NCBI GenBank assembly: GCA_913020495.1
Contig: CAJWBJ010000004.1
Span: 1 to 64,000, forward strand
Length of the DNA stretch: 64,000 nt
Direction of reading: 5' to 3'
Source of the DNA: an uncultured Oleiphilus sp.
GTDB taxonomy: Bacteria > Pseudomonadota > Gammaproteobacteria > Pseudomonadales > Oleiphilaceae
A program made the position numbers and the translations under genes. Numbering within the stretch: the first letter of the stretch is position 1; every line of letters begins with the position of its first letter. The notes under the pieces are model-generated. The model made no database searches and was not told the origin of the DNA. It saw nothing but the letters and a program-made list of their open reading frames with translations. Below, piece by piece: positions 21,167 through 64,000 of the stretch.

Positions 21167-22966
21167 TCAGGGGAACATGGGTTGAAGTGGAGATGATTTA
21201 CTGGTCGAGTCTTTTTCTGTTATAACGCGCTTAACATGCTGCAATAACAACGTTTTATCGTATTTAGATTCTGAAGGCGTATGTGCACTGGCGTATAGTT
21301 TATGCTCAAATGCTTTTGCTTGCAGGTAAAGCCCTTCATCTAAATCTTTTAAGTTATGAATGTTTAGTATTTTTAAAGCTATTCGTTTGGATTGCGCCAC
21401 CTTATTGGCCCACTGAATAAGGTACTTAGGCATGTCACTATCATTAGTATTTATTGCTTCACACAATGTTTTATAGAGTTGGGTTAGGTCTGGCTCCGGG
21501 CTGAACTGAGCATCTGTAAGTTTAGATATGGGCTGCCTTTTTAATAGCCACCACGTGGTACTAATCCAGCCAAGTACCAGCAGTACAATAATGGTGTACC
21601 AGGCTTGGTTGCTGGTTGAGGGTAATACTGAATTAACGGGTAATTCGGTGGTTGGATTTTCAAATTTTGGTGTCGCTGCTTGCATGGGGGTTTGTGCTGA
21701 TGCAGTAGGAGGCGTTTGAACAAGCGCCTCTGTCTCAGGGTTAACTTTTATACTGAGCGACTGCGCTGGAATAACGGCAACACGTTCAATATCATTCACT
21801 GTATCCCACCATGGGATACGAATTTCGGGTAAAGTGATTTCATTGGGAGCAACGGCGACCAGCGCGATTGACTCTTGACGAATAGACTGTGCTCCTGATT
21901 CATGTTGTAGTGATTCAACTGTGGGGGAGTCAGGATAGATCTTTAAGCCCTGGATTTTTTCAATGCCCATTGGGGGGAGGGCAGAGCCTAATAAACCAAG
22001 AGAATTAATTTCTAATGTGCGGGTAATTGAATCACCAACTAATAAATTGTCAGGAGGGGTTTCCCATTTTTCACTTAGGTGGAAGCTAGTGGCAGGTAAC
22101 CAAATGTCGCCAGAAAAGTTAGGTGGGGGTGGTTTAATATCGATACTGATAGGGTCTGTTGATTCTCTGACTCTCAGTCGTCGTCTATTACGCGTATCAA
22201 TTAGAAGACCGTTGAAGCTTTGCGCTTCAATTGTAAGTTCGCCACTTTTTTGAGGGAATAACAAATATTGCCGTTCTCGGACTTCATAGCGACGATTATA
22301 GGCCATCCTGAAATATTTTTTGGTGTCACCTAAGGCTTCAATAATGGCGTCATTGGACTCAGGTACGCTCAACTCACCGCTTGCCAAGCGGTCCGCTGAA
22401 TACAATCGAAGCGTGTAGATGATTTGCTCTTGTACATAGGCTTCTGGTTTATCAACGACAGCCTCAATAAAAACTTGAGGAGGGTTATTCGCATCTTGCG
22501 GCGCTTTACCTCTTAAAACGCTAATTGTGACAGGGTTTGATTGTGCGTCTTTATATTTAGCTGGGGGGATTGTCAGTGTGCCTATTTGCTTGGGTGCAAG
22601 GCTATAGCTCCAGGTTACTTTTGCTTTGGTCTCACCATTAATAGACTGCATATTGTAACTTTGTTTTTGATCAAGAATTTCGAAATTCTGGTCAAGCCCT
22701 TCTATCACAGGCGGATCAATTTGTTGCCTGCCAAAGTTCATTAAGCCGCCAAAACTGAAATCCATTTCAATATCGCCGGTAATAATTAGATTTATGGTGT
22801 CTGATTCATAGATCTTGTTACGGTCAACACTGGCGGTTAAAGCAGTTTCTGCCATGCTGGAAAATGTTGATGCAAGTAAGCATACAAATATAAGGAAACG
22901 GTTCATGGAACGATCGACTCTTAATAAATTTTTATCAAAGGTTAAACTGGTTAATGTATTTACCAT
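21167..22966 (-). CDS. BatD / oxygen-tolerance family protein
   Basis: Signal peptide, Ig-like beta-rich region, C-terminal TM; last gene of the MoxR-Bat operon. Confidence 0.82.
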   Translation of the reverse strand: MVNTLTSLTFDKNLLRVDRSMNRFLIFVCLLASTFSSMAETALTASVDRNKIYESDTINLIITGDIEMDFSFGGLMNFGRQQIDPPVIEGLDQNFEILDQKQSYNMQSINGETKAKVTWSYSLAPKQIGTLTIPPAKYKDAQSNPVTISVLRGKAPQDANNPPQVFIEAVVDKPEAYVQEQIIYTLRLYSADRLASGELSVPESNDAIIEALGDTKKYFRMAYNRRYEVRERQYLLFPQKSGELTIEAQSFNGLLIDTRNRRRLRVRESTDPISIDIKPPPPNFSGDIWLPATSFHLSEKWETPPDNLLVGDSITRTLEINSLGLLGSALPPMGIEKIQGLKIYPDSPTVESLQHESGAQSIRQESIALVAVAPNEITLPEIRIPWWDTVNDIERVAVIPAQSLSIKVNPETEALVQTPPTASAQTPMQAATPKFENPTTELPVNSVLPSTSNQAWYTIIVLLVLGWISTTWWLLKRQPISKLTDAQFSPEPDLTQLYKTLCEAINTNDSDMPKYLIQWANKVAQSKRIALKILNIHNLKDLDEGLYLQAKAFEHKLYASAHTPSESKYDKTLLLQHVKRVITEKDSTSKSSPLQPMFP

Positions 22967-24804
22967 ATAGGTTCACCTGCTTCTCTTGCACTTCTATTTC
23001 GTTCTCGGGATTGTTGTTCGAATTTACGGCGTAACAGTCCACCAGGGTCATCAGGAACCCTACGCATCCACTGTTCATATGATTGCTTTTCTTCTTCGCT
23101 TAACTCTTCGGGTTCAGGTAATGCAGAAGCCTGAGCATCTTGTTCAGCATCTTTCTTAGCTTGTTGTTTTTGAGCTTCTTTTTCTTGCTCGGATTCATTT
23201 TCTTTTTGTTTGCTTTCTTGCTCTTCTTCCGACGACTGATCTTCTTTTTGGTTTTGTTCTTGTTGGTCGTTGTCCTCCTCAGAATTCTGCTTATCTGATT
23301 CTTGGTCGTCCGAATTTTGTTGGTCCTGATCTTTATTGTCGGACTTGTTCTGGTCTTGATTTTCTTGATCTGAATCTTGCTTGTCTGAGTCATTACTCTC
23401 TGAAGATTCTTGTTGTTTTAGAAATTCTTCAATGAGTGATTTGTTATGTTGCGCATCTTTATTTTCAGGGTCTAGTTCTAATGCTTGCTCATAAGCTGTA
23501 ATTGCTTCTTCGAATTTTTGTTGTTGTGCGAAGGAATTACCTTGATTGTATAAGTTGTGGGTGGTATTTGACTTTCCATATTGTGCAGCAGCTTGTTCAA
23601 ATTGTTTTGCCTGATAGTTAGCGTTTGCTTTATGTTCTAAAGAATCAAAACGTTTTGCGGCTTCAATGGCATTGCCATTATCGAGTAAGGTTTGGGCTTG
23701 CTGATCCTGTGTTTGCCAAAGGTCATCCCAGCCAAATGCATAGCTTTCTTCAATTGGGATTAAAAATAAAGAAAATAAGAGTACAACCTGAATCATGACG
23801 CCTTGGCGGTGAGCTCTTAACACAAGTGGAATTACTATAAAGAGCATTAAAAACCCCATGTCTTCCCATGCATCAAAACCTCTTTCCATTGTCGGGTCAG
23901 TTTCTTCCTGTTGATTGTTTAAGGTTAAGCTACCTTCAATATCTAAAAGATTGAGGTCTTGGTCATCAAGTGTCATTTGTAACATTTGTCCTCGATTTTG
24001 ATTAGCGAGTGATGCTAGAGATGAAAAATCTGTTTTGGGGATAACTACATTCCCCTCATCTTTTAAATAACCTTTATCAGGGAGTTTAATTGGGCCTCCA
24101 GCGGCTGTACCGGCAGCGAGAATAAGTAAGTTTGTGCTTGTCCCATCAAGTAATTTATTGATGCGGTCGATATGGTGTGATTCCACTCCATCAGTAAGGA
24201 GTACGATTCGACCATTGGTCGCTTTGCCTTGTTTTAATAATTGAACAGCTTGTTTAACCGCTAGGTCTGGTCGACTACCGATCACCGGCATAATAAAAGG
24301 GTCCAGTGCCGGGAGGTTTGCGATGATGGTCTTAGTGTCATCTGTTAAAGGGGTGACAACATGGCTATCTCCAGAAAAAGCGATTAGAGCCGTGCTACCT
24401 TCTTTACGAAGTTTAAGAAGATCTTGAAGCTTTTGTTTTGTCCGTGTGAGGCGATTTGGGGCGGTATCAGTTGCCAACATAGATAAAGATAAATCTAGTA
24501 TTACCACCATGTTGTCAGTGAGTTTGACTATCTCCTGTGGTTTCTCCTGCCAGGTTGGTCCTGACATGGCAATGAAAGTAAAACCTAGAACTAGTGTCAT
24601 TCCAAAGTGCCTAGTTCGTTTTCTTTGTTGCTGATGACTTGGTAACAAGTGCTTTAAAAGAGTTGGATGGATCGCATTAGACCAGTTATTGTTACTCAGA
24701 GCACGTTTGCGCATTGCAACATAAACAACGGGTAGGAGTAATAGGCCTAACAACCAGAGAGGGCGTAAAAAATGGAATTGTGATAGGTGATCAAAAAAGC
24801 TCAT
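22960..24804 (-). CDS. VWA + TPR protein (BatB/BatC fusion) with acidic/Gln-rich tail
   Basis: VWA MIDAS DLSLSMLATD; TPR AITAYEQALELDPENKDAQHNKSL; low-complexity QESSESNDSDKQ... tail. Confidence 0.85.
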   Translation of the reverse strand: MSFFDHLSQFHFLRPLWLLGLLLLPVVYVAMRKRALSNNNWSNAIHPTLLKHLLPSHQQQRKRTRHFGMTLVLGFTFIAMSGPTWQEKPQEIVKLTDNMVVILDLSLSMLATDTAPNRLTRTKQKLQDLLKLRKEGSTALIAFSGDSHVVTPLTDDTKTIIANLPALDPFIMPVIGSRPDLAVKQAVQLLKQGKATNGRIVLLTDGVESHHIDRINKLLDGTSTNLLILAAGTAAGGPIKLPDKGYLKDEGNVVIPKTDFSSLASLANQNRGQMLQMTLDDQDLNLLDIEGSLTLNNQQEETDPTMERGFDAWEDMGFLMLFIVIPLVLRAHRQGVMIQVVLLFSLFLIPIEESYAFGWDDLWQTQDQQAQTLLDNGNAIEAAKRFDSLEHKANANYQAKQFEQAAAQYGKSNTTHNLYNQGNSFAQQQKFEEAITAYEQALELDPENKDAQHNKSLIEEFLKQQESSESNDSDKQDSDQENQDQNKSDNKDQDQQNSDDQESDKQNSEEDNDQQEQNQKEDQSSEEEQESKQKENESEQEKEAQKQQAKKDAEQDAQASALPEPEELSEEEKQSYEQWMRRVPDDPGGLLRRKFEQQSRERNRSAREAGEPIW

Positions 24805-25856
24805 TTTGCACCTCCTTGCTTAGAATAACTCAGTGTACGGAATAGTTTAAATAGCGCGTTGTGAATGACTAAGCTGCCATATGCGAATAAAGCAAAGCAT
24901 ACAAACCAGTAATAGAGTGCCTTTGTAGGTCTAAAGCTACGTGTTTCTTGTTCAACAGGCTCAAGAGCATTAATAGCTTGATAAATCGCTGTGAGTTCCT
25001 GTGTGCTTCTTGCGCGGAAGTATTGTCCTTCTGTTAATTCGGCAAGTTGTTTTAACATATCTTCATCTAAGTCGGCAGAAGGGTTAACTTTTCTTGAACC
25101 AAAAAAACTGCGCTGCATCATCTCGTCAGCTCCAATTCCGACGGTATAAATTTTAATTTTTTCCTGTGCTGCAAACTGCGCAGCTTTTTCAGGTGGAATT
25201 TCACCTGCGGTATTTGCTCCATCAGATAACAGTATGAGTACGCGGCTTTGTTCGGGTCTTTGCTTTAGGCGTTTCACTCCTAAGGTAATTGCATCACCGA
25301 TTGCTGTCGCATTTCCAGCCATGCCAAGATAGGCTTCCTGTAAAAGTGTATTGACAGTAATAACATCAAAGGAGAGAGGGGATTGAACGTATGGTTGCGA
25401 GCCGAACAATATTAAACCAACACGATCCCCCGATCTCTCCTGAACAAATTCACTCACTACTTTCTTAACAACTTTTAAACGGGTGACTTGTGTTCCTTTT
25501 ATTTGCATATCTTTTTCTTCCATACTTGGCGAAATATCAATAGCTAACATTAAGTCTCGGCCTGAAAGAGGAATATCTACTTGGTCTCCAATATAAGTGG
25601 GGCGACAAATAGCAATGACTAGTGAAATCCAAGCAATTAATAGAATAAATTGCTTCCATTTTGGTGTGGTTTGGTCGTTATTTATATGACCAAAACCTAA
25701 CTTTTTAGCTGTTTCGAAAATAGGTAAATGTGGAGCAATATAACTAGGAGCTTCAATTTTTCGTTTGAAAATCACAATCCATGGTAGAGGAAGTAATAAC
25801 AATAGCCATGGCCAATGAAGTTCGAAAGCCGTTTCACCGCTTAATAAACTCATCAT
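24801..25856 (-). CDS. VWA domain membrane protein (BatA)
   Basis: MIDAS AIDISPSMEEKDM; flanking TM helices; LLSDGANTAGE. Confidence 0.87.
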   Translation of the reverse strand: MMSLLSGETAFELHWPWLLLLLPLPWIVIFKRKIEAPSYIAPHLPIFETAKKLGFGHINNDQTTPKWKQFILLIAWISLVIAICRPTYIGDQVDIPLSGRDLMLAIDISPSMEEKDMQIKGTQVTRLKVVKKVVSEFVQERSGDRVGLILFGSQPYVQSPLSFDVITVNTLLQEAYLGMAGNATAIGDAITLGVKRLKQRPEQSRVLILLSDGANTAGEIPPEKAAQFAAQEKIKIYTVGIGADEMMQRSFFGSRKVNPSADLDEDMLKQLAELTEGQYFRARSTQELTAIYQAINALEPVEQETRSFRPTKALYYWFVCFALFAYGSLVIHNALFKLFRTLSYSKQGGAK

Positions 25857-26365
25857 GACTGGCTGCTCTCTTGGTTGTCTGAATACGTTTTTTTAGTTGT
25901 GCTCTTAAGGTCTTTAATCCAACGTTCAATTCGAGACAAGGCACTTGAATCAAGCCGCTCACATGAGGCTTTATAATGGCCTGTGGTGAGAAGCTCAAGG
26001 TCATGTGTTTGTAATGGGCTTTCTGATTCTTGAAGAGTTAATCGCCATTGCTCGCCAGTGACGGCTAATAAAGCTGAATTTTGTTTGACGGTAGAGGCGC
26101 AACGTTTGAGCAAAATCACAATCATAGATAATGATTGGGGTGAGGGGCTCTGTTGATAAGACTGCTTCAAAAGTTTGAACTCTTTAAGCGCAGCACGACG
26201 CCATGCATTGGCGCGATACCAGCGAATCGTAAACCAAACAAGTGCAGAGATGCCAAGTGTTATAAATACCACTAATAAAACCCAGCCTATGGCGGGAGGC
26301 CATGAGCCTATTGAATCTGGGGTATGTACATCTCTAAGTTGTTCAAGAAGGCTGCTAGGATCCAT
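25853..26365 (-). CDS. DUF4381 domain membrane protein
   Basis: LRDVHTPDSIGSWPPAIGWVLL motif and position in the Bat operon. Confidence 0.83.
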   Translation of the reverse strand: MDPSSLLEQLRDVHTPDSIGSWPPAIGWVLLVVFITLGISALVWFTIRWYRANAWRRAALKEFKLLKQSYQQSPSPQSLSMIVILLKRCASTVKQNSALLAVTGEQWRLTLQESESPLQTHDLELLTTGHYKASCERLDSSALSRIERWIKDLKSTTKKTYSDNQESSQS

Positions 26366-27369
26366 TACGCCCCCCTCAAAGACAACAGCATTCGCTGTAG
26401 TGTATTGATAGGTGCTTCCTGAGTCGTGACTTCAATGTAAGGTGCTTTAATACTGATACTTAAAGAAAGAAGGTGTTCTTTTTGCTTTGCTGCCCAATCT
26501 GCATAATTTTGGCGTACTGAATTTGACTGTGAGTCGATGACCAAGGTTTCATTTCCATCTGATACAGGGTAAAAGCCAGGAGGTGGAAGCTGTTCTTCTA
26601 TTGGGTCTAATGTACGTACCATTAATAGTTCATTATGTTTTGCTAGTCTGGTAAAAAGCTTTTCAGTGTCATTGTTAATATGTCTGAAGTCACTGATTAT
26701 AACAATCAGAGTCCCAGGCTTTGATAAACGAATTGTCTCAACTAAAGCATCATTAAAATGAAAAACAGATTCAGGAGGAGGCGTACTTATATTTAAAGAT
26801 TGATTGAAGTCACTTATAGTTTTCAATAAACGCATAATGCTTTTTCGATTTCTGGAAGGCTTTATTTCCTGATGGCCTTGCTCTGAAAAAACGATACCTC
26901 CCACTCTATCATTGTGCTCTAAAGCTGCCCAGGCAAATAATGAAGCTGTTTCGGCCGCTCGAACTGATTTAAATGTTAACTGGCTGCCAAAAAATTGTGA
27001 CTGGCTTTGGTCACAAAGTATTAACAACGGTCGTTCCCGCTCTTCATCAAACAGTTTAGTGTGTGGCTTTTGTCTTCGTGCTGTGACGCGCCAATCGATA
27101 CTACGGACATCATCGCCAGGCTGGTACATTCTTACTTCAGAAAACTCCATGCCACGCCCACGAAAACGTGAATAATGTAAGCCGGATTGTGGTCGACTGA
27201 CTCGTTTTGCTTTTGGAAGGCTTAAGTTTCGTACAGACCAGCGTAAAGCCATCAACTGTTTTAAGGTGCAGTATGGGCCAGTACAACCTGTATTGAAAAC
27301 TTCAGCAGGGTCACTTTGAGATTGAGTGCTTGAATTAGCGCTCAAGAAATCACTAACTCGTTTTAGCAT
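26365..27369 (-). CDS. DUF58 domain protein
   Basis: SRFRGRGMEFSEVRMYQPGDDVRSIDWRVTARRQKPHTKLFDEERERP. Confidence 0.9.
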   Translation of the reverse strand: MLKRVSDFLSANSSTQSQSDPAEVFNTGCTGPYCTLKQLMALRWSVRNLSLPKAKRVSRPQSGLHYSRFRGRGMEFSEVRMYQPGDDVRSIDWRVTARRQKPHTKLFDEERERPLLILCDQSQSQFFGSQLTFKSVRAAETASLFAWAALEHNDRVGGIVFSEQGHQEIKPSRNRKSIMRLLKTISDFNQSLNISTPPPESVFHFNDALVETIRLSKPGTLIVIISDFRHINNDTEKLFTRLAKHNELLMVRTLDPIEEQLPPPGFYPVSDGNETLVIDSQSNSVRQNYADWAAKQKEHLLSLSISIKAPYIEVTTQEAPINTLQRMLLSLRGA

Positions 27370-27393
27370 TGAATGAATCCAATCATCATAGAA

Positions 27394-28359
27394 TTAAGCT
27401 ACAGGAACACGGTGAATTAATTCATTAATGACCTGGTCAGTCGTGATGCCTTCCGCCTCAGCTTCAAAAGTGATGAGTATGCGATGACGATAAACATCAT
27501 GTAATACAGCACGCACATCATCAGGACTAACAAAGTCTTTTTGCTGTAACCAAGCATAAGCTCTTGCACAGCGATCCAGTGAAATCGTTCCTCGAGGACT
27601 AACACCGAAGTCAATCCAGCGCGCTAAATCTTCCCCATACTTTGCTGGTTGTCGAGTAGCCATAGTTAGGTGAACTAAATAATCTTCAACGGCGTCACTC
27701 ATATGAAGTTGATTGATTTCTTCGCGACCATCAAAAATAGCTTGTTGAGAAATTTTAGAGATAGTCTCTGTTATATTTGTATTTTGAGATTGCTCAGCTC
27801 GGGCTAGCTTTAAAATACTGTGTTCAGACTCTTGGTTAGGGTAATCAATTTTAACATGCATTAAAAAACGATCTAATTGTGCTTCAGGTAATGGGTAAGT
27901 ACCTTCTTGTTCAATCGGATTCTGGGTAGCCATGACTAGAAAGAGCTTGTCTAGAGGGAAAGTTTCTTTACCAACACTCACTTGCCGCTCACCCATTGCT
28001 TCAAGTAACGCTGATTGTACTTTTGCCGGAGCACGGTTGATTTCATCGGCAAGAATTAAATTGTGGAAGATAGGCCCCTTTTGAAAATGGAACATGCCTT
28101 CTTCTGCACGGTAAATTTCAGTACCGGTTACATCCGATGGCAATAAGTCAGGGGTAAACTGGATTCGCTGGAAATTTCCTTCAATTCGATCTGAAAGTTC
28201 TTTAATCGCTTTTGTTTTGGCTAAGCCTGGCGCACCTTCAACAAGTAAGTGGCCGTCTGCGAGTAAAGCGATGAGTAAACGCTCGACTAAATGATGTTGA
28301 CCAATAATTGCTTGGCTCAATGAATGATTTAATTCTTTAAATGCACTGCTTGATGTCAT
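27394..28359 (-). CDS. MoxR-family AAA+ ATPase
   Basis: Walker A GAPGLAKT; ADEINRAPAKVQSALLEAMGERQVS; ATQNPIEQEGTYPLPEAQLDRF. Confidence 0.93.
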   Translation of the reverse strand: MTSSSAFKELNHSLSQAIIGQHHLVERLLIALLADGHLLVEGAPGLAKTKAIKELSDRIEGNFQRIQFTPDLLPSDVTGTEIYRAEEGMFHFQKGPIFHNLILADEINRAPAKVQSALLEAMGERQVSVGKETFPLDKLFLVMATQNPIEQEGTYPLPEAQLDRFLMHVKIDYPNQESEHSILKLARAEQSQNTNITETISKISQQAIFDGREEINQLHMSDAVEDYLVHLTMATRQPAKYGEDLARWIDFGVSPRGTISLDRCARAYAWLQQKDFVSPDDVRAVLHDVYRHRILITFEAEAEGITTDQVINELIHRVPVA

Positions 28360-52810: not shown

Positions 52811-53653
52811 ATGGGTTTTAAAGGCACGAGCGAATATATAGCGACGAGCGATCTCCAAATGGCGGTTAATGCTGCTATCTCACTTGAAAAGCCATTGCTG
52901 ATTAAAGGTGAGCCTGGGACTGGTAAAACGATGTTGGCAGAACAAATTGCTGCATCAATGGGACTAAAGCTAATTCAGTGGCACATTAAATCAACAACGA
53001 AAGCACAACAAGGTTTGTATGAATATGATGCGGTTTCGCGATTACGTGATTCTCAGTTAGGTAATGACAAAGTACATGATATCTCTAATTATATCGTTAA
53101 AGGAAAGTTGTGGGAGGCTTTTGATTCAGATGAGCGTGTTGTGTTGTTAATTGATGAAATTGACAAGGCTGATATCGAGTTTCCAAACGATCTGTTAGTT
53201 GAAATAGATAAAATGGAATTTTTTGTTTATGAAACACAAGAACGAGTTGTCGCGAAGCAGCGGCCTATCGTATTGATTACCAGTAATAATGAAAAAGAAC
53301 TGCCTGATGCATTCCTTCGTCGTTGTTTTTTCCATTATATAAATTTTCCTGATAGCGAAACTATGCAGAAAATTGTTGATGTTCATTATCCCAATCTAAA
53401 GCAGGACTTGTTAAAAGAAGCATTGGATGTTTTTTTTGATGTTCGCAAAGTTCCTGGTTTAAAGAAAAAGCCTTCTACAAGCGAGTTGATTGATTGGTTG
53501 AAATTGCTGATGGCTGATGAATTATCTGAAAAAATGCTTCAAGAGCGTGACCCGTCCAAAGCAATACCACCGCTTTATGGTGCGCTATTAAAAAATGAGC
53601 AAGATGTGCATTTGCTTCAGCGCTTGGCTTTTATGTCAAGACGTAAAGGCTGA
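52811..53653 (+). CDS. MoxR-type AAA+ ATPase (second copy type)
   Basis: Walker A GEPGTGKTMLAEQ; LLIDEIDKADIEFPNDLL; ITSNNEKELPDAFLRRCFFHYI. Confidence 0.92.
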   Translation: MGFKGTSEYIATSDLQMAVNAAISLEKPLLIKGEPGTGKTMLAEQIAASMGLKLIQWHIKSTTKAQQGLYEYDAVSRLRDSQLGNDKVHDISNYIVKGKLWEAFDSDERVVLLIDEIDKADIEFPNDLLVEIDKMEFFVYETQERVVAKQRPIVLITSNNEKELPDAFLRRCFFHYINFPDSETMQKIVDVHYPNLKQDLLKEALDVFFDVRKVPGLKKKPSTSELIDWLKLLMADELSEKMLQERDPSKAIPPLYGALLKNEQDVHLLQRLAFMSRRKG

Positions 53654-53674: not shown

Positions 53675-54853
53675 ATGTTAATAGATTTTTTCCAGAAGAT
53701 ACGAAATGCGAAGGTTCCGGTTACATTAAAAGAACTTTTAGACTTGATGGAGGCTTTAGATAAAAGGCTGATCTTTGCAGATATAGACGAGTTTTATTAT
53801 TTGAGCCGTCTCTGTCTGGTTAAAGATGAGAAGCATTTTGATAAATTTGATCGCGCTTATGGTGCTTATTTTGAAGGTATAGAAACTCTCGACGATCTGC
53901 TAGCTGCTGCTATACCTGATGAATGGCTTCGTGCCGAGTTTGAAAAAAGCTTAACAGAGGAAGAAAAAGCAAAAATTGAGGGCATGGGAGGGCTTGAGGA
54001 GCTGATGAAAGCTTTCAAGGATCGCCTTGAAAACCAGAAAAAGAAGCATCAGGGCGGTAATAGGCAGATCGGTACCGGAGGTACCTCACCGTTTGGCGCG
54101 AATGGCTACAACCCAGAAGGTTTTAGAATTGGACAAAAAAGCGGACGTCATGGTCGAGCCGTAAAAGTTTGGGAAAAGCGCGGCTACAAAGATTTGGATG
54201 GTGATGTCACCTTAGGTATTCGAAATATCAAGATGGCGCTCAGGCGACTTAGAAAATTTGCTCGGCAGGGCGCGGCAGATGAACTTGATCTAACAGACAC
54301 GATTCGTTCTACCGCGCGTAATGCAGGCTATCTTGATATAAAGCTTATACCTGAACGACACAACAGTATAAAAGTCTTGTTGTTTTTTGATGTGGGTGGT
54401 TCTATGGATCCTCATATTAAAGTGTGCGAAGAGCTTTTTTCAGCTGCTCGTATTGAGTTTAAGCACATGGAAAATTTTTACTTTCATAACTTCATATATG
54501 AAAGTGTGTGGAAAAATAATATTCGACGTGTGAATGAATCTACGCCAATTTGGGATGTGTTGCATAAATATAGTTCAGATTACAAAGTAATTTTTGTGGG
54601 AGATGCGTCAATGGCTCCATATGAAATTACGCAACCAGGCGGCAGTATTGAGCATTGGAATGAAGAAGCTGGATCTGTATGGATGCAGAGATTGCAAGAT
54701 CATTTCAATAAAGTTATCTGGATAAACCCATTGCCTGTAGATTATTGGGGTGAAGGTGGTTCGTTAGGGATTACCAAGCAGCTTCTGAAGGATAATATGT
54801 ATCCTATGACAGTAGAAGGGCTTGCGGATGGAATGCGATACTTAAGTCGCTAA
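53675..54853 (+). CDS. VWA domain CoxE-like protein
   Basis: Degenerate MIDAS FFDVGGSMDPH; gene directly downstream of the MoxR ATPase. Confidence 0.85.
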   Translation: MLIDFFQKIRNAKVPVTLKELLDLMEALDKRLIFADIDEFYYLSRLCLVKDEKHFDKFDRAYGAYFEGIETLDDLLAAAIPDEWLRAEFEKSLTEEEKAKIEGMGGLEELMKAFKDRLENQKKKHQGGNRQIGTGGTSPFGANGYNPEGFRIGQKSGRHGRAVKVWEKRGYKDLDGDVTLGIRNIKMALRRLRKFARQGAADELDLTDTIRSTARNAGYLDIKLIPERHNSIKVLLFFDVGGSMDPHIKVCEELFSAARIEFKHMENFYFHNFIYESVWKNNIRRVNESTPIWDVLHKYSSDYKVIFVGDASMAPYEITQPGGSIEHWNEEAGSVWMQRLQDHFNKVIWINPLPVDYWGEGGSLGITKQLLKDNMYPMTVEGLADGMRYLSR

Positions 54854-55027: not shown

Positions 55028-55594
55028 ATGCTTATACGACAATTCTTGTCATTCCTTGCTATTGCTACATTTATATTATTAGGTTCGAGTTCACTCTATG
55101 CTGCAGAACCAATTGATGCGAATAAATCTAAAGTTAAACCTAAAGCAATTGACCCTGCGCTCCTTAAAGAGGCTGAGCAATTAAAAAAACAGCTAATCCA
55201 GCTAAACAGTGAACTTTATCAGTTTGAAGAAGATCTGCTTTATCCTGCAAATACCCAGCTTGGTGTGTTTTTATCCATGTCTTCAGAAAGTTCATTTATT
55301 CTAGACTCCATTGAAATTCGTTTAGACGATAAGCTAGTAACTTCATATTTGTATAAACAGAATGAAATATCTGCTCTCAAGAAAGGAGGAGTTCAGCGTT
55401 TATTTCTTGGTAGCTTGTCAGATGGGCGTCACAAGTTAACTGCCAGGTTTAATGGACAAGGGGCGAATAATCGTTATTTTCGTCGCAAGAAAGCCTTACC
55501 GTTTACAAAAGACCAAAATGCAAAGTTCATACAGTTAGTGGTAACAGAAAGTAAAACCACACGAGAGCCACTTTTCAAAGTTAAGCAGTGGTAG
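55028..55594 (+). CDS. Exported hypothetical protein, first gene of TPR/ExbBD operon
   Basis: Signal peptide MLIRQFLSFLAIATFILLGSSSLYAAEP; overlaps the next ORF. Confidence 0.65.
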   Translation: MLIRQFLSFLAIATFILLGSSSLYAAEPIDANKSKVKPKAIDPALLKEAEQLKKQLIQLNSELYQFEEDLLYPANTQLGVFLSMSSESSFILDSIEIRLDDKLVTSYLYKQNEISALKKGGVQRLFLGSLSDGRHKLTARFNGQGANNRYFRRKKALPFTKDQNAKFIQLVVTESKTTREPLFKVKQW

Positions 55595-57273
55595 TAAATT
55601 TGCATAAATTACTCGCACACATCCAACTTGCCTTATTAGCCTTGGGCTTGTTATTCAGCTCTTTGCTTAATGCGATGCCTGATGAACTGTACCAAGGTAT
55701 GATTCAATTTGAGCTTGAAAGTGGCAATCACTTTAATGCATTAACTTTAATGGATCAGAATTATCAAAGTACAAACCCTGTTGATCATGCTGTTGCATTA
55801 AAAGGCTTCAATATCAATGCTGATGTGAATGAGCATCTCGAAGAAATCCGTAAAAAGGGTAAACAAAAAACTTCTGAAATTAGTTACTCAGACTATTTTA
55901 AAATAGGCCGGTTGGAATATCAGCTTGGAAATTGTAAGCCTGCCCTGAGAGCATTCAAAAAGCTAAAGAACAAACTAGCAATTGAAGATAAGCAAGAATG
56001 GGTTTTTTATCGTGCCAACTGCTTTATTCGTCTTGGAAGCAACTCAAAAGCAATGCAGGTTCTCAACGATACCGTTGAAGGAGAATGGGCTTCACATGCT
56101 TATTATAATTTGGCGATATCGTACGATGCTGCGAGTCGAAATAAATCGAATGCTCTGAAGTCCTTAAAGCTAGCATTATTGCTCAACAAAGGTAAATCTT
56201 TAGAAGAAATTGAACTTAAGAATCAAATAAATTTTACGGTTGGCCTGCTTTACTTGAACGCTGAAAAGCCCGATTTGGCTAGTAACTTCTTTAAAAAAGT
56301 ATATTTGAATTCTGCAATTGCTCCTGAAGCACTTTATTTAAATGGCCTGGCAAAATTAGAGTTAAATGACTTTCGAGCAGCAACTCAGTCCTGGTTTAGC
56401 GTTAAAAAATATCCATTAGTTAATCAAAGTGTTGCTGAAGCGCTACTAGCTATTCCGTATGCATATGAAAGATCAGGCTATATAGGTCAAGCACTTGAGG
56501 CTTACCTTGAGGCGAGTGGAGCTTTCAATAGTGAGTTAAAAATTATCGCAAAAATTGATGCCCTGTTAGAACAATATGGTGCTCAAAAGATACTAATTGA
56601 AGATAATAATATTGAAGGACTTGAGTGGTTCTTAGCTAAGGATGTCGTTACTAATACGATGAAGGCAACTTATTATAGTTATTTCATGCAAAATGAAGAA
56701 ATTTATGATGCTGTTGAGTTATTTACAGAGCTAAAAATGTTAGTAAATAGTATGGAATTCTGGTCATCGCAACTGAATGTTTTTGATCGGTCAATTAAAG
56801 AAAAGCGAACAAATTTTACCAATAAGAGCAAAAAGTTTAATTCAGCTAAAACTCAATCAAAAATAGATAAACTCGATCAAAGATTAAACGATATTAAAGG
56901 AGAAAAAGCATTAACGCCTCAACATATAGCACGGTTGCAGGTCGATAACATGCAGGTGGGTGCGAAATTGTTGATGCAACGACTTAAAGAACTCAAGATA
57001 AAAGTTTCACAAGGGCAAGGAAGATTAAAGTCACAATTAAAGCATAGCAACAAGTTAAATAAGCAAGCAAAAAACTCACAAAAGCAGCTGTTGTCATTAA
57101 TTAAAAAACTTGATCTCCAAATTACCGCCATGATTCGTAGTCAGTTAGCGAAACTGAAAACACAAATGCTAGCTAATTATGAACGGTCAGAGCAGGGCTT
57201 GATGCATGTTTTTCAAGATATTTCTGAAAGTAACCGAGTTCAAAAGAATCGACTAGATGGGCGCTATAAATAA
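55588..57273 (+). CDS. TPR-repeat envelope protein
   Basis: GTG start overlapping the upstream stop; signal-like N-terminus; helical repeats (YYNLAISYDAASRNKSNALKSLKLALLL). Confidence 0.7.
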   Translation: MVVNLHKLLAHIQLALLALGLLFSSLLNAMPDELYQGMIQFELESGNHFNALTLMDQNYQSTNPVDHAVALKGFNINADVNEHLEEIRKKGKQKTSEISYSDYFKIGRLEYQLGNCKPALRAFKKLKNKLAIEDKQEWVFYRANCFIRLGSNSKAMQVLNDTVEGEWASHAYYNLAISYDAASRNKSNALKSLKLALLLNKGKSLEEIELKNQINFTVGLLYLNAEKPDLASNFFKKVYLNSAIAPEALYLNGLAKLELNDFRAATQSWFSVKKYPLVNQSVAEALLAIPYAYERSGYIGQALEAYLEASGAFNSELKIIAKIDALLEQYGAQKILIEDNNIEGLEWFLAKDVVTNTMKATYYSYFMQNEEIYDAVELFTELKMLVNSMEFWSSQLNVFDRSIKEKRTNFTNKSKKFNSAKTQSKIDKLDQRLNDIKGEKALTPQHIARLQVDNMQVGAKLLMQRLKELKIKVSQGQGRLKSQLKHSNKLNKQAKNSQKQLLSLIKKLDLQITAMIRSQLAKLKTQMLANYERSEQGLMHVFQDISESNRVQKNRLDGRYK

Positions 57274-60119
57274 TGACGTTATCGCGACTATTTCCATTAT
57301 TGTCACTCTTTGTTATATTTTTTTTACAACCAGTGATTAGTAATGCTGCTAACAATACATTTATTGTAGAGATGAAGTCAGAAGCTAAAACAATCGGAGA
57401 TATAAGACCTGTATTTATAGTTTATAAAGATAAAGAGCTCCCAAAGGTTTCGATAAAATACTTGTTGAAAAAGTATATAAAATTATTTGAGCAGGCAGAC
57501 TCTCCTGCGGTAAAAATTGATGCATTAAACCGTATTAATAATTTACGCGTTAAATATAAGGTCACCAATAAAAAACTCACAATTGATAAAGTTAAACAGA
57601 GTGAAGTCGTACTAGAAAGTTACGACAGAATTATCGATTCAGATATTTCTTATCAGCACTTGGATGAATTGATTTATCAAACAGCGAAAGCGCAATCATT
57701 TATAGGTAATGACATTGAGTCAATTAAACGTTTAAAACTACTTGTCGGTTTATACCCTCAATCAGAGCTCTTTGATGAAAGTATGTTTCGAATGGCTGAA
57801 TCTTATTTTGAACTTGGACAGTATGAGAACGCTGAATCGACATATAAAAAGATTTTAACTTTTTCAAAGGAAAAAACTTATCATCAGCAATCTCGCTTCA
57901 AATTAGGTTGGTCGATTTTTAAACTTGAGCGATATGGTGATGCGAGCAAGTTTGCAATCGAGACATTAGACCAGTACCCCGTATTGTCGAATGCGCTTAA
58001 TATGAATGTGGTTTCTGAGAATGAACAAGAGCTTGTTGAAGATACTTTCCGCTTACTAGCCATTATGTTTTCAAAGCAAAAAAATGCTGAAGCAATCGAA
58101 AGCTTACAAAAAAATATCTCTCATAATCGTTATGCTTTTCTTCTGTACGACGCTCTATTTCGCTTCTATTTAACTCAGGATCGTTTTGAAGATAGTGCAT
58201 TAGTCGCTGATGCATATACTAGAAACTACCCTAAAGACTTTCATGCTTATCTGATGGCAATTAACACTATTAAAACTTACAAGAAAGGCAAGTTCGATAT
58301 ACAAGAGTGGAGCGCTAAAGAAAGTTTTGTCAAAAACTTCGGGATAAACAGCCCATACTGGTCGGTTTTATCGGAAGAGCAAATACCTGTGATCAAACCA
58401 CTCGTGACTCACTACTTAGGGGAGCTGGCTCACTTATATTATGTTCGAATGCAAAATAGCCTTAAAAGCAAAGCCAAAGATATTACTTTTGAAGGTCATG
58501 CTCGGCGGGCAGCAGATTATTATTTGGAGTTAGTGTCTACAACTCCCGCATATAAAGAAAACGCTCAATATTTATATTTAGCCGCAGAGGCTCTCAATAC
58601 TTCATCTAAAAGTGATGCAGACTTCTTAAATGTTATCGACCTATATGAACAGGCTGCTTACAAACAAAATAGAGGGTTTTCTGTATCGATAGATGCGGGG
58701 TATGCGGCCATACTGAGCTATGAAAAACTTAAAAAGCAGGTTAATTCATCAATTAAAAAATTAAGTTTAGACTTAGTCAGCAAACGACAGTCTAGTATTG
58801 AAAGCTACGCTAAATTTTTCCCTGACAATGCGAAGACGCCCGATTTACTCAATGACTTGGCTAATGAATTGTACACAGCCAATAACTTCCCAAAAGCTTT
58901 AAATGTGTCAGCAAAAGTTGTTTCAAACCCAAAAGCGAGGCCCAGCGTTTTGTATTCAAGTTGGCTAGTCAATGCACATAGCTCATTTGAATTACAAAAA
59001 TACACCACAGCTGAACACGCCTATCAAAAAGCGCTTGGTTTTAAACGTCCTAAAGACCAAAAAGTCCTACAAGAGCGTTTAGCTGCATCAATTTATAAAC
59101 AAGCGGAGCTTGAAACTAATTTTGGGTTAAGTGCAGAGTTATATTTAAAAGTTGTTGATACAGTGCCAAACGCCAGTATTGTTCCACAAGCCTTATATGA
59201 TGCTTCAAGCCAATTATTAGCTTCAAGGAACTGGGGGCAAGCAATAGCGACTCTTAGTCATTTTCAGTCAGCTTTTCCTGAGCATAAACTTCATGATGAT
59301 GCCTCTGAAAAGCTAATTTATGCCTATACAGAGAATGGTGAGTTTATATCTGCAGCTGAAATATTAGTTAATGTTTCTAGTAAAACAAAAGATTTAGCCA
59401 AGGCTTCAAATTATCTTTACCGAGCTGCGGATTTGTATCATGAGAATGGCTTTGAGTTTGAAGGTGTTCAGTTATATGAAGATTTTATAAATCAATACCC
59501 CCAAATGTTTGATTTGAATATTGAAGCACACCAGTTAATTATTGCGTTTAATCATCGCTCAACTAATGTCAAAGACATGCGGGGTTGGCAAAAAAAGCTA
59601 GTGGGGTATGAAAAAAAGAATGTATCTAAGCGAACTGATCGCTCAGCCCATTTGGCGTCTGGTGCTGCGTTAGCGCTTGTGATGTTGGATTTTCAGGCAT
59701 TTGAACGTTATAAATTAACCTTACCATTAAAAAAGTCACTGAAAAGAAAAAAAACCTTACTTAAAAAAGTTGTCGAAGAGTTTGAATCCTTAGTTGATTA
59801 CGGTATCGCGGACATTGTTACAGCTTCTACCTATCAGATTGCTCAAGTATATCGAACTCTCGCGCAAGATCTGATGCTTTCTGAGCGACCGAATACTTTA
59901 ACTGAGTTACAGCTTGAACAATATAATATTTTGTTAGAAGAGCAGGCGTACCCCTTCGAAGAGCAAGCCTTGGATATATATAAACTTAATTTAGCAAAAG
60001 TGCCTGAGGGGCAGTACGATAAATGGATACAGCTAACCTATAACGTACTTGAAGAGATGAATCCGACTGAATATAAACGTAAATTCAAGGAGGTCTCTTA
60101 TGCAAATGAAGTTTATTAA
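57273..60119 (+). CDS. Large exported TPR-repeat protein
   Basis: Signal peptide; repeats such as DESMFRMAESYFELGQYENAESTYKKIL; 948 aa. Confidence 0.8.
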   Translation: MTLSRLFPLLSLFVIFFLQPVISNAANNTFIVEMKSEAKTIGDIRPVFIVYKDKELPKVSIKYLLKKYIKLFEQADSPAVKIDALNRINNLRVKYKVTNKKLTIDKVKQSEVVLESYDRIIDSDISYQHLDELIYQTAKAQSFIGNDIESIKRLKLLVGLYPQSELFDESMFRMAESYFELGQYENAESTYKKILTFSKEKTYHQQSRFKLGWSIFKLERYGDASKFAIETLDQYPVLSNALNMNVVSENEQELVEDTFRLLAIMFSKQKNAEAIESLQKNISHNRYAFLLYDALFRFYLTQDRFEDSALVADAYTRNYPKDFHAYLMAINTIKTYKKGKFDIQEWSAKESFVKNFGINSPYWSVLSEEQIPVIKPLVTHYLGELAHLYYVRMQNSLKSKAKDITFEGHARRAADYYLELVSTTPAYKENAQYLYLAAEALNTSSKSDADFLNVIDLYEQAAYKQNRGFSVSIDAGYAAILSYEKLKKQVNSSIKKLSLDLVSKRQSSIESYAKFFPDNAKTPDLLNDLANELYTANNFPKALNVSAKVVSNPKARPSVLYSSWLVNAHSSFELQKYTTAEHAYQKALGFKRPKDQKVLQERLAASIYKQAELETNFGLSAELYLKVVDTVPNASIVPQALYDASSQLLASRNWGQAIATLSHFQSAFPEHKLHDDASEKLIYAYTENGEFISAAEILVNVSSKTKDLAKASNYLYRAADLYHENGFEFEGVQLYEDFINQYPQMFDLNIEAHQLIIAFNHRSTNVKDMRGWQKKLVGYEKKNVSKRTDRSAHLASGAALALVMLDFQAFERYKLTLPLKKSLKRKKTLLKKVVEEFESLVDYGIADIVTASTYQIAQVYRTLAQDLMLSERPNTLTELQLEQYNILLEEQAYPFEEQALDIYKLNLAKVPEGQYDKWIQLTYNVLEEMNPTEYKRKFKEVSYANEVY

Positions 60120-60711
60120 CACTTTTATTACGAAAATGCCGGTAATATTTTTTATCGCGTTGTTATTTTCTGGGTGTGCAAGTAAAGCAACTAAACCAGA
60201 AATAGTTATCGCTGAGAATGTAGAGTTATCAAAGCCTGTATTGTTACCAGAGCATCTGTCTGAATATAAGAAGGCGCTTGGTTTTATGAGAGCAAAGTCC
60301 TTTGGGGATGCGCATAAGATTTTTAATACGCTATTAACCATTTATCCAAAACTGGCGGGGGCATATGTAAATATTGCCATCATTTTTCAAGCTGAATCTG
60401 ATGATGAACAAGCCCAGAAAAACTACAGTAAAGCATTGGAGATAAATCCCAATAATGTTGATGCATTAATTCAACTGGCCGCATACAGCCAAAAACAAGG
60501 CCAGTTTAAAAAGGTAGAAAAATATTTATTAACGGCTGAAGCGGTCGATAAATCAAATCAGACAGTGCAATATAATTTAGCGGTTTTATATGAGCTGTAT
60601 TTACAGCAATTTGGTGAGGCCATTGATCATTATGAAAATTATATTGCCTTATCTTCAGATGAAGACGTAGAAACAGTTAAGCGCTGGGTTATGTTATTGG
60701 AGCGGAAATGA
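60100..60711 (+). CDS. TPR-repeat lipoprotein
   Basis: Lipobox LFSGC; TPR AYVNIAIIFQAESDDEQAQKNYSKALEINPNNVDAL; SD AAGGAGG. Confidence 0.83.
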   Translation: MQMKFINTFITKMPVIFFIALLFSGCASKATKPEIVIAENVELSKPVLLPEHLSEYKKALGFMRAKSFGDAHKIFNTLLTIYPKLAGAYVNIAIIFQAESDDEQAQKNYSKALEINPNNVDALIQLAAYSQKQGQFKKVEKYLLTAEAVDKSNQTVQYNLAVLYELYLQQFGEAIDHYENYIALSSDEDVETVKRWVMLLERK

Positions 60712-61007
60712 AATCATTTGTTATTACCTTACCTTTCCTACTTATGATATTTTCATGTGCAGTTTTCAGTGAAAACCGTAATGAGGTTGAAACAATGACA
60801 GAAGTTTCTATCATTGGTAATGCAGAGCTGCCTAATAAGGTTTTTGATTTATCTTGGCGCTTGCCAAGTGTAGAAAAAAGAGAAAATCAATTACCACCAA
60901 AACAACTAACAGGGATGCTTAAGCCATTAGAGCCCTTTCGGTATCGGCAGCAAATTCACTTTTCACGTTATTTAGAAGTCGACACCTCAAATTTCAGTGC
61001 TCGATAA
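60708..61007 (+). CDS. Small exported protein in operon
   Basis: ATGA overlap with the upstream gene; signal-like MKSFVITLPFLLMIFSCAVFSE. Confidence 0.6.
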   Translation: MKSFVITLPFLLMIFSCAVFSENRNEVETMTEVSIIGNAELPNKVFDLSWRLPSVEKRENQLPPKQLTGMLKPLEPFRYRQQIHFSRYLEVDTSNFSAR

Positions 61008-61135
61008 TAGATTAATATTTAAATTAACTTAATAAAGACGAAATCGGCATTTTAAACAATATTATTTGTTTACAATAGCGGCCTATAAATAAGAACTAAC
61101 TAGATGATTTTGTATCGTTTTCAGGAGAATATGCA

Positions 61136-61771
61136 ATGACAGAAACAGTGGTCCGTTTTTTTCAAGAGGGTGGCTTTTTCATGTACCCCATCGCTGTTAT
61201 TTTAGTTATAGGATTAGCCATTGCACTTGAACGCTGGATTTACCTATCTTCAACCAAAAGTTCTAACAGGGCTGCTTTCGACAAAGGCATTCTGCCCATT
61301 CTAAGAAAACGTGATTATAAGTCTGCACTTAAATTTGCCAATGATTCGCAAACACCTATCGCTGCGATTATGGGTGCTGGTTTAAGTCGTTTGGTTGGTG
61401 GAAGTCGCCGTGAAGAAATTGAGTTTGCAATGGAAGAAGGTTTAATGGAAACATTACCGCGCCTTGAAAAAAGAACACCTTACTTAGCTACCCTTGCTAA
61501 CGTATCTACTTTACTAGGATTACTTGGAACTATTATTGGTCTTATCGCCGCATTTACAGCGGTTGCAAATGCTGACCCAGCTGAAAAAGCTTCTTTATTA
61601 TCACAAAGTATTTCTGTTGCAATGAATACAACCGCTTTCGGCTTAATGGCAGCTATTCCTCTTTTATTGTTCCATGCTGTTTTACAGACCAAAACAAATG
61701 AAATCGTTGATAGTTTTGAGATGGCTGGTGTGAAGTTACTCAATATGATTTCTGACCAGACATCAAATTAA
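61136..61771 (+). CDS. MotA/TolQ/ExbB-family proton channel protein
   Basis: FFMYPIAVILVIGLAIALERW; LATLANVSTLLGLLGTIIGLIAAF; AMNTTAFGLMAAIPLL. Confidence 0.93.
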   Translation: MTETVVRFFQEGGFFMYPIAVILVIGLAIALERWIYLSSTKSSNRAAFDKGILPILRKRDYKSALKFANDSQTPIAAIMGAGLSRLVGGSRREEIEFAMEEGLMETLPRLEKRTPYLATLANVSTLLGLLGTIIGLIAAFTAVANADPAEKASLLSQSISVAMNTTAFGLMAAIPLLLFHAVLQTKTNEIVDSFEMAGVKLLNMISDQTSN

Positions 61772-61852
61772 TAAGTCTGAGAGCGCGTAATTAGTTAATT
61801 AAGTGTTATATAACTAATTTATAGTATGAACATCAGCTAAGCGAACGATTTT

Positions 61853-62350
61853 ATGGCAAGAAGGAAGCACAGAAGACTCGTCCAATCTGCAGACCTGGAT
61901 ATTACGGCATTTATGAATTTAATGATCGTATTAGTGCCTGTTTTGTTGTTGAGTATGGTCTTCACTCAGAATGCAGTATTAGATTTGAATTTCCCCGTGA
62001 TTGATGAAAGTAAGATTCCTCTTGATAATGAGGAATTGCAACTTCAATTAATTGTTCGACCAAATGGGATGAATATCGCGGACACCAAGGCTGGCCTGAT
62101 CAAGCATATTCCAAAATTAAATAATGCTTATGATTTTGAAGCTCTATCTGCGGTCCTCAAATTGCTAAAAGCAAAGCTTCCAAACAAGACTGATATAACA
62201 TTACTTCTTGATGAAAATGTAGATTATCAAACACTTGTTACAACAATGGATGTTACTCGATCTTACCCTGCGGTTGTAGCGGCAAGCCTTGTAGAAGCGG
62301 AATTGTTTCCGGATATCTCGATTGGCGATGCGCCGGAGTTAGGCCAATGA
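61853..62350 (+). CDS. ExbD/TolR-family protein lacking the usual TM Asp
   Basis: Single TM DITAFMNLMIVLVPVLLLSMVF; operon context. Confidence 0.83.
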   Translation: MARRKHRRLVQSADLDITAFMNLMIVLVPVLLLSMVFTQNAVLDLNFPVIDESKIPLDNEELQLQLIVRPNGMNIADTKAGLIKHIPKLNNAYDFEALSAVLKLLKAKLPNKTDITLLLDENVDYQTLVTTMDVTRSYPAVVAASLVEAELFPDISIGDAPELGQ

Positions 62351-62850
62351 AGCTATCCAGACGTGCTAAAAGAATGCAGCGACATCATCGACGTACTGCC
62401 AAAACAGCAAGTTTAAACTTAGTCTCTTTAATGGATATTTTTACCATTTTGGTTTTTTTCTTAATGGTTAACTCCTCTGACGTTAAAGTTTTGCAACAAG
62501 ATAAATCAGTTGAGCTACCTATATCTACTGCTGAACAACAGCCGAAAGATAATATCGTTATTACCATATCTGGCGCTAATATTCTTGTTCAGGGTAGAGC
62601 GGTCGCACGTACAGATAATTTTCAAGATAAAGAAATAATTCAGGATCTTAAAAAAGAACTTGTTTACCAGTCTAATCGTAGAACAAAACCTTCAGGTGAA
62701 GAGTTTAAAGGCTATCCCGTTACCTTAATCGCCGACAAGGGAACGCCCTACAAACTACTAAAAATTATAATGGCGACTTGTACCGAGGCAAAATACACTC
62801 AAATCTCATTAGCAGTCTCTAAAAAACACAAAATTAAGGCGGATTCTTGA
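62347..62850 (+). CDS. ExbD/TolR-family protein with TM Asp
   Basis: SLNLVSLMDIFTILVFFLMVNSSD; ATGA overlap with the upstream gene. Confidence 0.87.
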   Translation: MKLSRRAKRMQRHHRRTAKTASLNLVSLMDIFTILVFFLMVNSSDVKVLQQDKSVELPISTAEQQPKDNIVITISGANILVQGRAVARTDNFQDKEIIQDLKKELVYQSNRRTKPSGEEFKGYPVTLIADKGTPYKLLKIIMATCTEAKYTQISLAVSKKHKIKADS

Positions 62851-63830
62851 TGGTAGTTGAATCTCAAGACCGGCTTATGCTGCCTTGGACTTCTGAGGGA
62901 AAAGAGAGTCTTCGCTTTAAAAGCATACTCGTCATTTTATTTCTTTTATTACTTATATTTTCAATATGGATTCCAACAATATCTCTACCTGAAAAAGACA
63001 GAGAAACATTAGAGAAGCTACCACCCCAACTTGCAAAGTTTGTTAAAAAGAAAGAACTACCAAAGCCTGTTAAGAAAGTCGAACCAAAGAAGAAAGAAGA
63101 AATAAAGGTTGAGAAAAAACCGGAGCCTAAAAAGGAGCCCCCAAAAAAGCCACAAAAGAAAAAGCCGGTAAAGATAAATAAACCAAAACCACAGGTAAAA
63201 GCTAAAACACCTGAGCTAAAACGTAAGGTCAAAGCTGCTCGTGAAGTGGCAAAGAAAACAGGCTTGCTGGCACTACAGGATGAGCTAGCAGACCTTCGTA
63301 CAACCGTAGATGTATCTACTTTAAGTAAGAAGCTTGCGCCAAGAAAAGCTAAGACTATTGCAGTTAAAGCGGAGGGCTCCAACTCACAACAAATACTAGC
63401 AAGAAGTTCAGGAATTCAAACGGAAACTTTATCTGCCCCAGCTGAAATAATCGCTTTACAAGCTCGTAGTGGTACAGAACTTGATGAAACAGTAGACGAA
63501 AAAGCACTAGCTAAAGCAGAAGCTGATGCGGCATCACGCATTAAGTATCGTAGCGAAAAAAGCATAAACCTGATTGTGGAAAGATTGAAAGGTTCATTAA
63601 TCGCTTTATATAACCGTGAAAGACGAAAAGACCCATTTTTAGAAGGAATGCTAATGGTTGAAGTCATAATTGAACCAAGCGGATCTGTTTCGTCGTGCCG
63701 TGTTATTTCTTCAGAATTGAATCACAAAGTGCTTGAGAAAAAGATGCAAAATAGAATTTATCTTACCGACTTTGGTGCTGAAGACGTTGTGCAGACAACA
63801 AAGAATATTCCATTTAACTTTGGACTTTAA
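62850..63830 (+). CDS. TonB-like protein with Pro/Lys-rich linker and AgmX/PglI-type C-terminal domain
   Basis: One N-terminal TM, KKPEPKKEPPKKPQKKKPVKINKPKP linker, C-terminal IALYNRERRKDPFLEGMLMVEVIIEPSGSVSSCRVISSEL. ATG 62850 overlaps the upstream TGA. Confidence 0.83.
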   Translation: MVVESQDRLMLPWTSEGKESLRFKSILVILFLLLLIFSIWIPTISLPEKDRETLEKLPPQLAKFVKKKELPKPVKKVEPKKKEEIKVEKKPEPKKEPPKKPQKKKPVKINKPKPQVKAKTPELKRKVKAAREVAKKTGLLALQDELADLRTTVDVSTLSKKLAPRKAKTIAVKAEGSNSQQILARSSGIQTETLSAPAEIIALQARSGTELDETVDEKALAKAEADAASRIKYRSEKSINLIVERLKGSLIALYNRERRKDPFLEGMLMVEVIIEPSGSVSSCRVISSELNHKVLEKKMQNRIYLTDFGAEDVVQTTKNIPFNFGL

Positions 63831-64000
63831 GATATAGGTGAGCAGGTAAACCGAATGAGAAATGGGTGTCAGATATTACTTATATTAGACGTAATGGCGC
63901 TTGTTTTTTTTAGCAACGGTAATGGATCATTATTCAAGGGCGATTGTGGGTTGGTCAATTGACTCTACGATGACGGAAGATCCTATTTGTGATGCGCTTA

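Follow-up and report, generated by a model that had tools for sequence, protein, structure and literature searches.

A probable Agl-Glt core complex with unequal ExbD-like subunits in an uncultured Oleiphilus sp.

Gene content of the locus

The window analysed here is a stretch of 64,000 nucleotides from an uncultured Oleiphilus sp. (contig CAJWBJ010000004.1, positions 1 to 64,000), and the system in question is an operon near its end which probably represents, in full, the gammaproteobacterial form of the Agl-Glt "core complex", accompanied by two exported proteins here called X1 and X2. A core of this kind, with no known function, was described as the Group B core complex of Gammaproteobacteria, including Marinobacter, by Luciano et al. 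2011 (PMC3169522), and its standalone occurrence in many Gammaproteobacteria was also noted by Wartel et al. 2013 (PMC3858216). The preliminary description of this DNA had allowed for novelty, which is not borne out, given these two papers. ORF (open reading frame) calling shows that nine intact ORFs on the same strand fill positions 55028-63830:

55028-55594, + strand: X1, exported protein of ~190 residues, first gene of the conserved unit (ORF; AlphaFold2 (AF2) model)
55588-57273, + strand: GltC-like periplasmic protein, tetratricopeptide repeat (TPR) solenoid plus coiled coil (ORF; sub-threshold TPR matches; AF2 model; position and size fit GltC, PMC3169522)
57273-60119, + strand: GltD-like large periplasmic TPR protein, 948 residues (TPR families over cut-off)
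60100-60711, + strand: GltE-like TPR lipoprotein, lipobox ..LLFSGC (TPR_2, 40 bits)
60708-61007, + strand: X2, small exported protein, motif G..E.P.vlYIvPW (alignment of 44 loci)
61136-61771, + strand: AglR, TolQ/ExbB/MotA-like proton-channel subunit (MotA_ExbB PF01618, 107.9 bits)
61853-62350, + strand: AglQ, ExbD-like axle subunit, Asn22 (61916-61918) at the position of the proton-binding Asp (ExbD PF02472, 40.7 bits)
62347-62850, + strand: AglS, ExbD-like axle subunit, proton-binding Asp30 (62434-62436) kept (ExbD PF02472, 66 bits)
62850-63830, + strand: GltG-like protein with a transmembrane helix, a Lys/Pro/Glu-rich linker and an AgmX/PglI-type (TonB-like) C-terminal domain (NF033768 over cut-off)

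The gene order is thus X1-GltC-GltD-GltE-X2-AglR-AglQ-AglS-GltG, the last gene ending at 63830. Six of the eight junctions overlap (55588, 57273, 60100, 60708, 62347 and 62847/62850, the GltG-like gene having an alternative TTG start at 62847), and the only gaps are those between X2 and AglR (128 bp) and between AglR and AglQ (81 bp). The ORF coordinates therefore agree with the nearly continuous nine-gene operon of the preliminary description, and the Pfam and NCBIfam models recover the parts that it had listed, i.e. a TolQ/MotA-like channel, two ExbD-like proteins and an AgmX/PglI C-terminus. Promoter and terminator predictions show no excess over shuffled DNA.

Motor, scaffold and transducer proteins

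One MotA/TolQ/ExbB-type channel gene lies adjacent to those of two ExbD-like subunits, as in the Group B core. Concerning the channel, AglR reaches neither of the equivalog cut-offs of the canonical families (TolQ, 67.7 bits against a cut-off of 221; ExbB, 43.4 against 206.2), whereas a separate TolQ encoded elsewhere in the genome scores 275 bits. In a tree of 62 rows, whose outgroup branches are very long, all core AglR sequences fall in one group with a support of 100/99, apart from the TolQ of this genome and from the other paralogues. The channel could have claded with canonical TolQ or ExbB, which would have spoken against the likeness to Agl-Glt proposed in the preliminary description, and the tree places it in a clade of its own.

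As regards TPR content, signal sequences, gene order and size, the GltC-, GltD- and GltE-like proteins are compatible with the Group B core. Two large periplasmic TPR proteins had been proposed: this holds for the product of 57273-60119, while that of 55588-57273 corresponds better to a GltC-type protein, with a TPR solenoid (residues 32-338) followed by a long coiled coil (residues 358-558). In its AF2 model (mean confidence, pLDDT, 84.2) the coiled coil includes one helix of 114 residues, whose predicted length would be enough to span much of the periplasm; Foldseek matches of this protein are generic TPR proteins only. The GltE-like lipoprotein matches the GltE model NF033758 with 28 bits (E 1e-6), the cut-off being 225.

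X1 and X2 match no Pfam or NCBIfam model. X1, conserved in most loci, is modelled as a short coiled coil plus an eight-stranded beta sandwich (AF2, pLDDT 88.5), for which a fold search against the PDB gave no match at E<=0.001 and best TM-scores of ~0.36 against the query. It may correspond to the "additional gene" of PMC3169522, which has no homologue in myxobacteria, a description that might fit X2 also. In alignment A3 of X2, P42 and W50 are invariant in 44 loci, its motif ending in the invariant Trp. X2 sits between GltE and the motor; in Myxococcus, gltF lies between gltE and gltG (PMC3169522), and GltF has been likened to a TonB box (PMC9389320). X2 thus occupies the place of GltF, and equating the two would be positional only.

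The GltG-like protein shows the AgmX/PglI C-terminal domain (NF033768, 48.4 bits, cut-off 40), a weak TonB_C match (18 bits) and a linker of which 53% is Lys, Pro or Glu. The Pfam scan shows no FHA domain on it, and a sequence search of the PDB yields no useful match either for this protein or for the VWA protein encoded upstream of the operon (see below).

Conservation and boundaries of the unit

Across 58 genomes of the order, strong relatives of the GltD-like protein are present in 40 and AglS in 38, all of the latter within the former: both occur in 38 genomes, GltD without AglS in 2, AglS without GltD in none, and neither in 18 (Fisher P = 4e-13). The nine-gene order recurs, with few exceptions, in 40 fetched and 80 named loci (~100 loci), the named loci being the best 80 matches of a scan of genome contigs; many of the apparent gene gaps arise from contig ends or from overlaps between ORFs, which the simple ORF caller dropped. 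Loci with the same order come from Marinobacter, Hahella, Gilvimarinus, Thalassolituus, Thalassotalea, Paraglaciecola, Woeseiaceae and Chromatiales, Oleispira being among the further carriers, and all carriers among these best 80 are either Gammaproteobacteria or labelled Proteobacteria only. Of 369 gammaproteobacterial genomes sampled evenly across the class, 84 carry the motor.

The upstream boundary is marked by two flanking genes:

52811-53653, + strand: MoxR ATPase, neighbour of the operon
53675-54853, + strand: CoxE-type VWA protein, neighbour of the operon

Relatives that are devoid of the core join this MoxR-VWA pair directly to the genes that elsewhere lie beyond GltG, most clearly in loci L162, L163 and L165. 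This empty site delimits the nine genes as a discrete unit, with MoxR-VWA as a neighbour. The pair was considered as a part of the machine and rejected, since the VWA gene occurs once per genome in 55 of the 58 genomes of the order, core or not, and since the pair stays in place where the nine genes are absent. The neighbourhood survey thus favours the grouping first proposed, the unit being collinear in dozens of loci with a discrete empty site; recurrent order, co-occurrence of GltD with AglS and the empty site together amount to more than chance.

Two variants were observed within the genus. In L075 (G002:C61:1000-16072) no AglR, AglQ or AglS is detected between X2 and GltG, due to either a deletion or an assembly error; no inverted repeats that could explain it were found there. 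In addition, a TPR protein of 600 residues follows GltG in the same direction in L042, L043 and L075, and is absent from the window.

Asparagine in AglQ and aspartate in AglS

AglQ Asn22 and AglS Asp30 align with the proton-binding Asp of ExbD (PDB 7ajq and 6tyi), a residue that the genome's own TolR and ExbD both carry. The Asp found in every axle subunit of canonical 5:2 motors is therefore present here in only one of the two. The pattern is general: AglQ has Asn in 28/28 sequences of the first locus set and in 80/80 of the named set, and AglS has Asp in 27/27 and 80/80, respectively (the sets share some genomes, and two AglS of the named set were missed by the search pattern, the Asp being visible in both). 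Asp30 is invariant in the AglS alignment. Among 20 of the most divergent members in the class, AglQ shows the Asn in 18 of 19, no recognisable AglQ being present in L180. The only exception found is the divergent core locus L172 (G074:C12:6000-12500), whose AglQ-type subunit keeps the Asp (VPMLDVMVILIFF), so that both subunits carry it.

In Myxococcus, a conserved Asp is reported in both AglQ and AglS (PMC9389320), and the D28N change in AglQ abolishes function and paralyses the motor (PMC3858216); the window AglQ lacks this Asp and carries the Asn of the D28N change in its place. Judging from sequence, the gammaproteobacterial motor, whose AglQ has Asn where its AglS has Asp, seems to work with a single protonatable carboxylate for each AglQ-AglS pair. 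No description of the asymmetry was found in the open-access literature, which is not proof of novelty.

What axle this implies can be read in two ways. The chances seem to us evenly divided as to whether the core motor is asymmetric by nature, a 5:1:1 proton motor in which AglS would bring the sole protonatable carboxylate and AglQ an Asn. For the motor only, a possible though less probable reading is that AglS homodimers form an ordinary two-Asp axle, AglQ being a non-conducting accessory that might, for example, anchor to peptidoglycan or dock GltG. The loss of the Asp from AglQ in nearly all loci would agree with it, as would the fact that the AglRQS stoichiometry is not established even in Myxococcus (PMC9389320). 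However, the AglQ transmembrane helix (ITAFMNLMIVLVP) is among the most conserved parts of this protein, as expected if packed inside the AglR ring, and in essentially every locus the AglQ- and AglS-type genes stand side by side, which speaks against this second reading.

Related modules and neighbouring genes

The same genome contains a lone, complete AglR-AglQ-AglS-GltG motor without GltC, GltD or GltE on contig C72 (L080:14608-17404), whose AglQ also has the Asn and whose AglR groups in the tree with those of motors that share its module type. Two further GltD modules, on C15 (L040:813-13411) and C100 (L041:2-3382), have no adjacent motor. From gene content, these motor-less modules may borrow a motor, as scattered clusters do in Myxococcus.

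The C15 module is preceded by genes for a di-haem lipoprotein, an SH3 plus barrel protein, a TIGR04565 barrel, a TlpA-like protein and a DUF3570 protein; DUF3570 has been described as a substrate for flavinylation by ApbE within redox clusters (PMC8238504). This block of barrel and DUF3570 genes is not found at the window locus. The C15 barrel scores 140.9 with TIGR04565 (OMP_myx_plus; cut-off 60), a family for which no literature was found. Matches of >=100 bits occur in 18 of the 58 genomes of the order, all with the core (P = 8e-5), and mostly lie <=10 kb from a GltD gene; in Oceanospirillaceae loci, a barrel pair stands directly between VWA and X1. In M. xanthus the paralogous barrel pair GltB-GltA adjoins gltC (PMC3169522; PMC4488436), and gltA/B have been listed as absent outside Myxococcales and Bdellovibrionales (PMC3169522), hence the TIGR04565 barrels merit a direct comparison with GltA and GltB.

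Around the operon, a transposase-like fragment lies directly downstream (window 63901-64000, continuing in L039:902-1162), and reading of the ORFs also indicates an antiporter-like membrane protein downstream on the contig. The same reading points to a Bat-type operon on the - strand (window 21167-28359), comprising MoxR, a DUF58-like protein, two VWA membrane proteins, one of them with TPR, and a BatD-like protein.

Comparison with known systems and proposed mechanism

With the Group B core the locus shares AglR, AglQ, AglS and GltG, apparently also GltC, GltD and GltE and perhaps the extra gene, all in one region, and no tested difference sets the two apart; the present analysis adds X1 and X2, an exactly delimited empty site and the Asn/Asp asymmetry. 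Order, domains and taxa support membership in this gammaproteobacterial core, as far as sequence can tell. Hence, the likeness to the Agl-Glt core put forward in the preliminary description is sustained by the parts list, gene order, AgmX/PglI domain, AglR clade and conservation as a unit. What seems new with respect to a kind of system already published is the asymmetry, the presence of X2 in the GltF position and the motor-less sister modules.

With the M. xanthus gliding machine the locus has in common a motor of one TolQ-like subunit and two ExbD-like ones, a TonB-like GltG, TPR proteins like GltC, GltD and GltE, and a small exported protein between GltE and GltG; it differs in that GltG lacks the FHA domain. 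The family search recognises no GltA, GltB, GltF, GltH, GltI, GltJ or GltK adjacent in the window, with X2 standing in the GltF position and the TIGR04565 barrel pair present only on contig C15, and no GTPase of MglA size was found in the genome, a draft that is 83% complete (PF00025 matches only frames of 839 and 322 residues). In Myxococcus, AglRQS powers both the Glt and the Nfs systems, AglR binding GltG and NfsG (PMC3858216). The Nfs spore-coat system resembles the present case by its modules without a motor of their own (here C15 and C100, with the lone motor on C72), and differs in that no sporulation is known for this genome. Tol-Pal and ExbBD-TonB belong to the same motor superfamily and also have a TonB-like transducer, but AglR scores below their cut-offs and forms its own clade, and the two ExbD subunits here are unequal.

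We consider that a complete Agl-Glt core with X1 and X2, working as a trans-envelope machine, is the best explanation as a whole and a probable one. It would be a motor driven by the proton-motive force with a transducer across the envelope. One AglQ-AglS heterodimer would sit within a ring of five AglR in the inner membrane, and proton flow through the single AglS Asp30 would turn or work this axle, with ~5 rather than 10 protonations per turn. The motion would be passed to GltG, whose Lys/Pro-rich linker would span the periplasm, and its TonB-like C-terminal domain would engage both X2, at the position of GltF, and the scaffold of GltC, GltD and X1. The assembly would be anchored to the outer membrane by the GltE lipoprotein. 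By analogy with AglRQS, which works with Glt and Nfs in Myxococcus, its job is most likely to move, pull on or gate outer-membrane or surface cargo, not to move the cell. Several points weigh against this picture: the case for orthology to the M. xanthus proteins is built on domains, gene order, size and a published survey; the GltE-like protein is far below the cut-off of the M. xanthus GltE model (28 vs 225 bits); no outer-membrane partner is encoded beside the window copy; and the axle could be an AglS homodimer, with AglQ placed elsewhere.

A different role, improbable in our view, is that of a TonB- or Tol-like energiser, in which GltG would open or pull an outer-membrane transporter or maintain the envelope, with the TPR proteins as adaptors and no processive movement of cargo. 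The channel, ExbD and TonB-like parts are indeed all of TonB/Tol type, including the Lys/Pro-rich linker of GltG, and in sister loci outer-membrane barrels (TIGR04565, DUF3570) are encoded immediately upstream of X1. Nevertheless, AglR lies far under the TolQ and ExbB cut-offs in its own clade, in a genome with a separate TolQ; two unequal ExbD subunits and ~1700 residues of TPR and coiled-coil scaffold are unlike TonB or Tol; and no TolB, Pal or TonB-dependent receptor is adjacent to the operon, as had been remarked in the preliminary description. A true surface-gliding machine like that of Myxococcus A-motility is very improbable, for in spite of seven core components common with the gliding machine and a TIGR04565 barrel pair beside a sister module of the same genome, GltG is without an FHA domain, GltH/I/J/K are not recognised next to the operon genes, an MglA-sized GTPase was not found in this 83% complete genome, and the core alone has been judged unlikely to drive motility (Luciano 2011, PMC3169522).

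Biological significance

The Agl-Glt core is common, being carried by the 84 of 369 sampled genomes of the class mentioned above, yet it has no assigned function in the literature found, and the gliding and spore-coat machines of Myxococcus are inferred to descend from it. Owing to the Asn/Asp asymmetry, two questions become directly testable: do AglQ and AglS pair as a heterodimeric axle, and can a single carboxylate suffice for a 5:2 motor? If the asymmetric reading is true, a one-Asp variant of the 5:2 rotary motors would be widespread, using half the protons per turn and taking larger steps. Culturable carriers such as Marinobacter, Hahella and Gilvimarinus, together with relatives that are naturally devoid of the core, offer a compact nine-gene unit in which to find its function.

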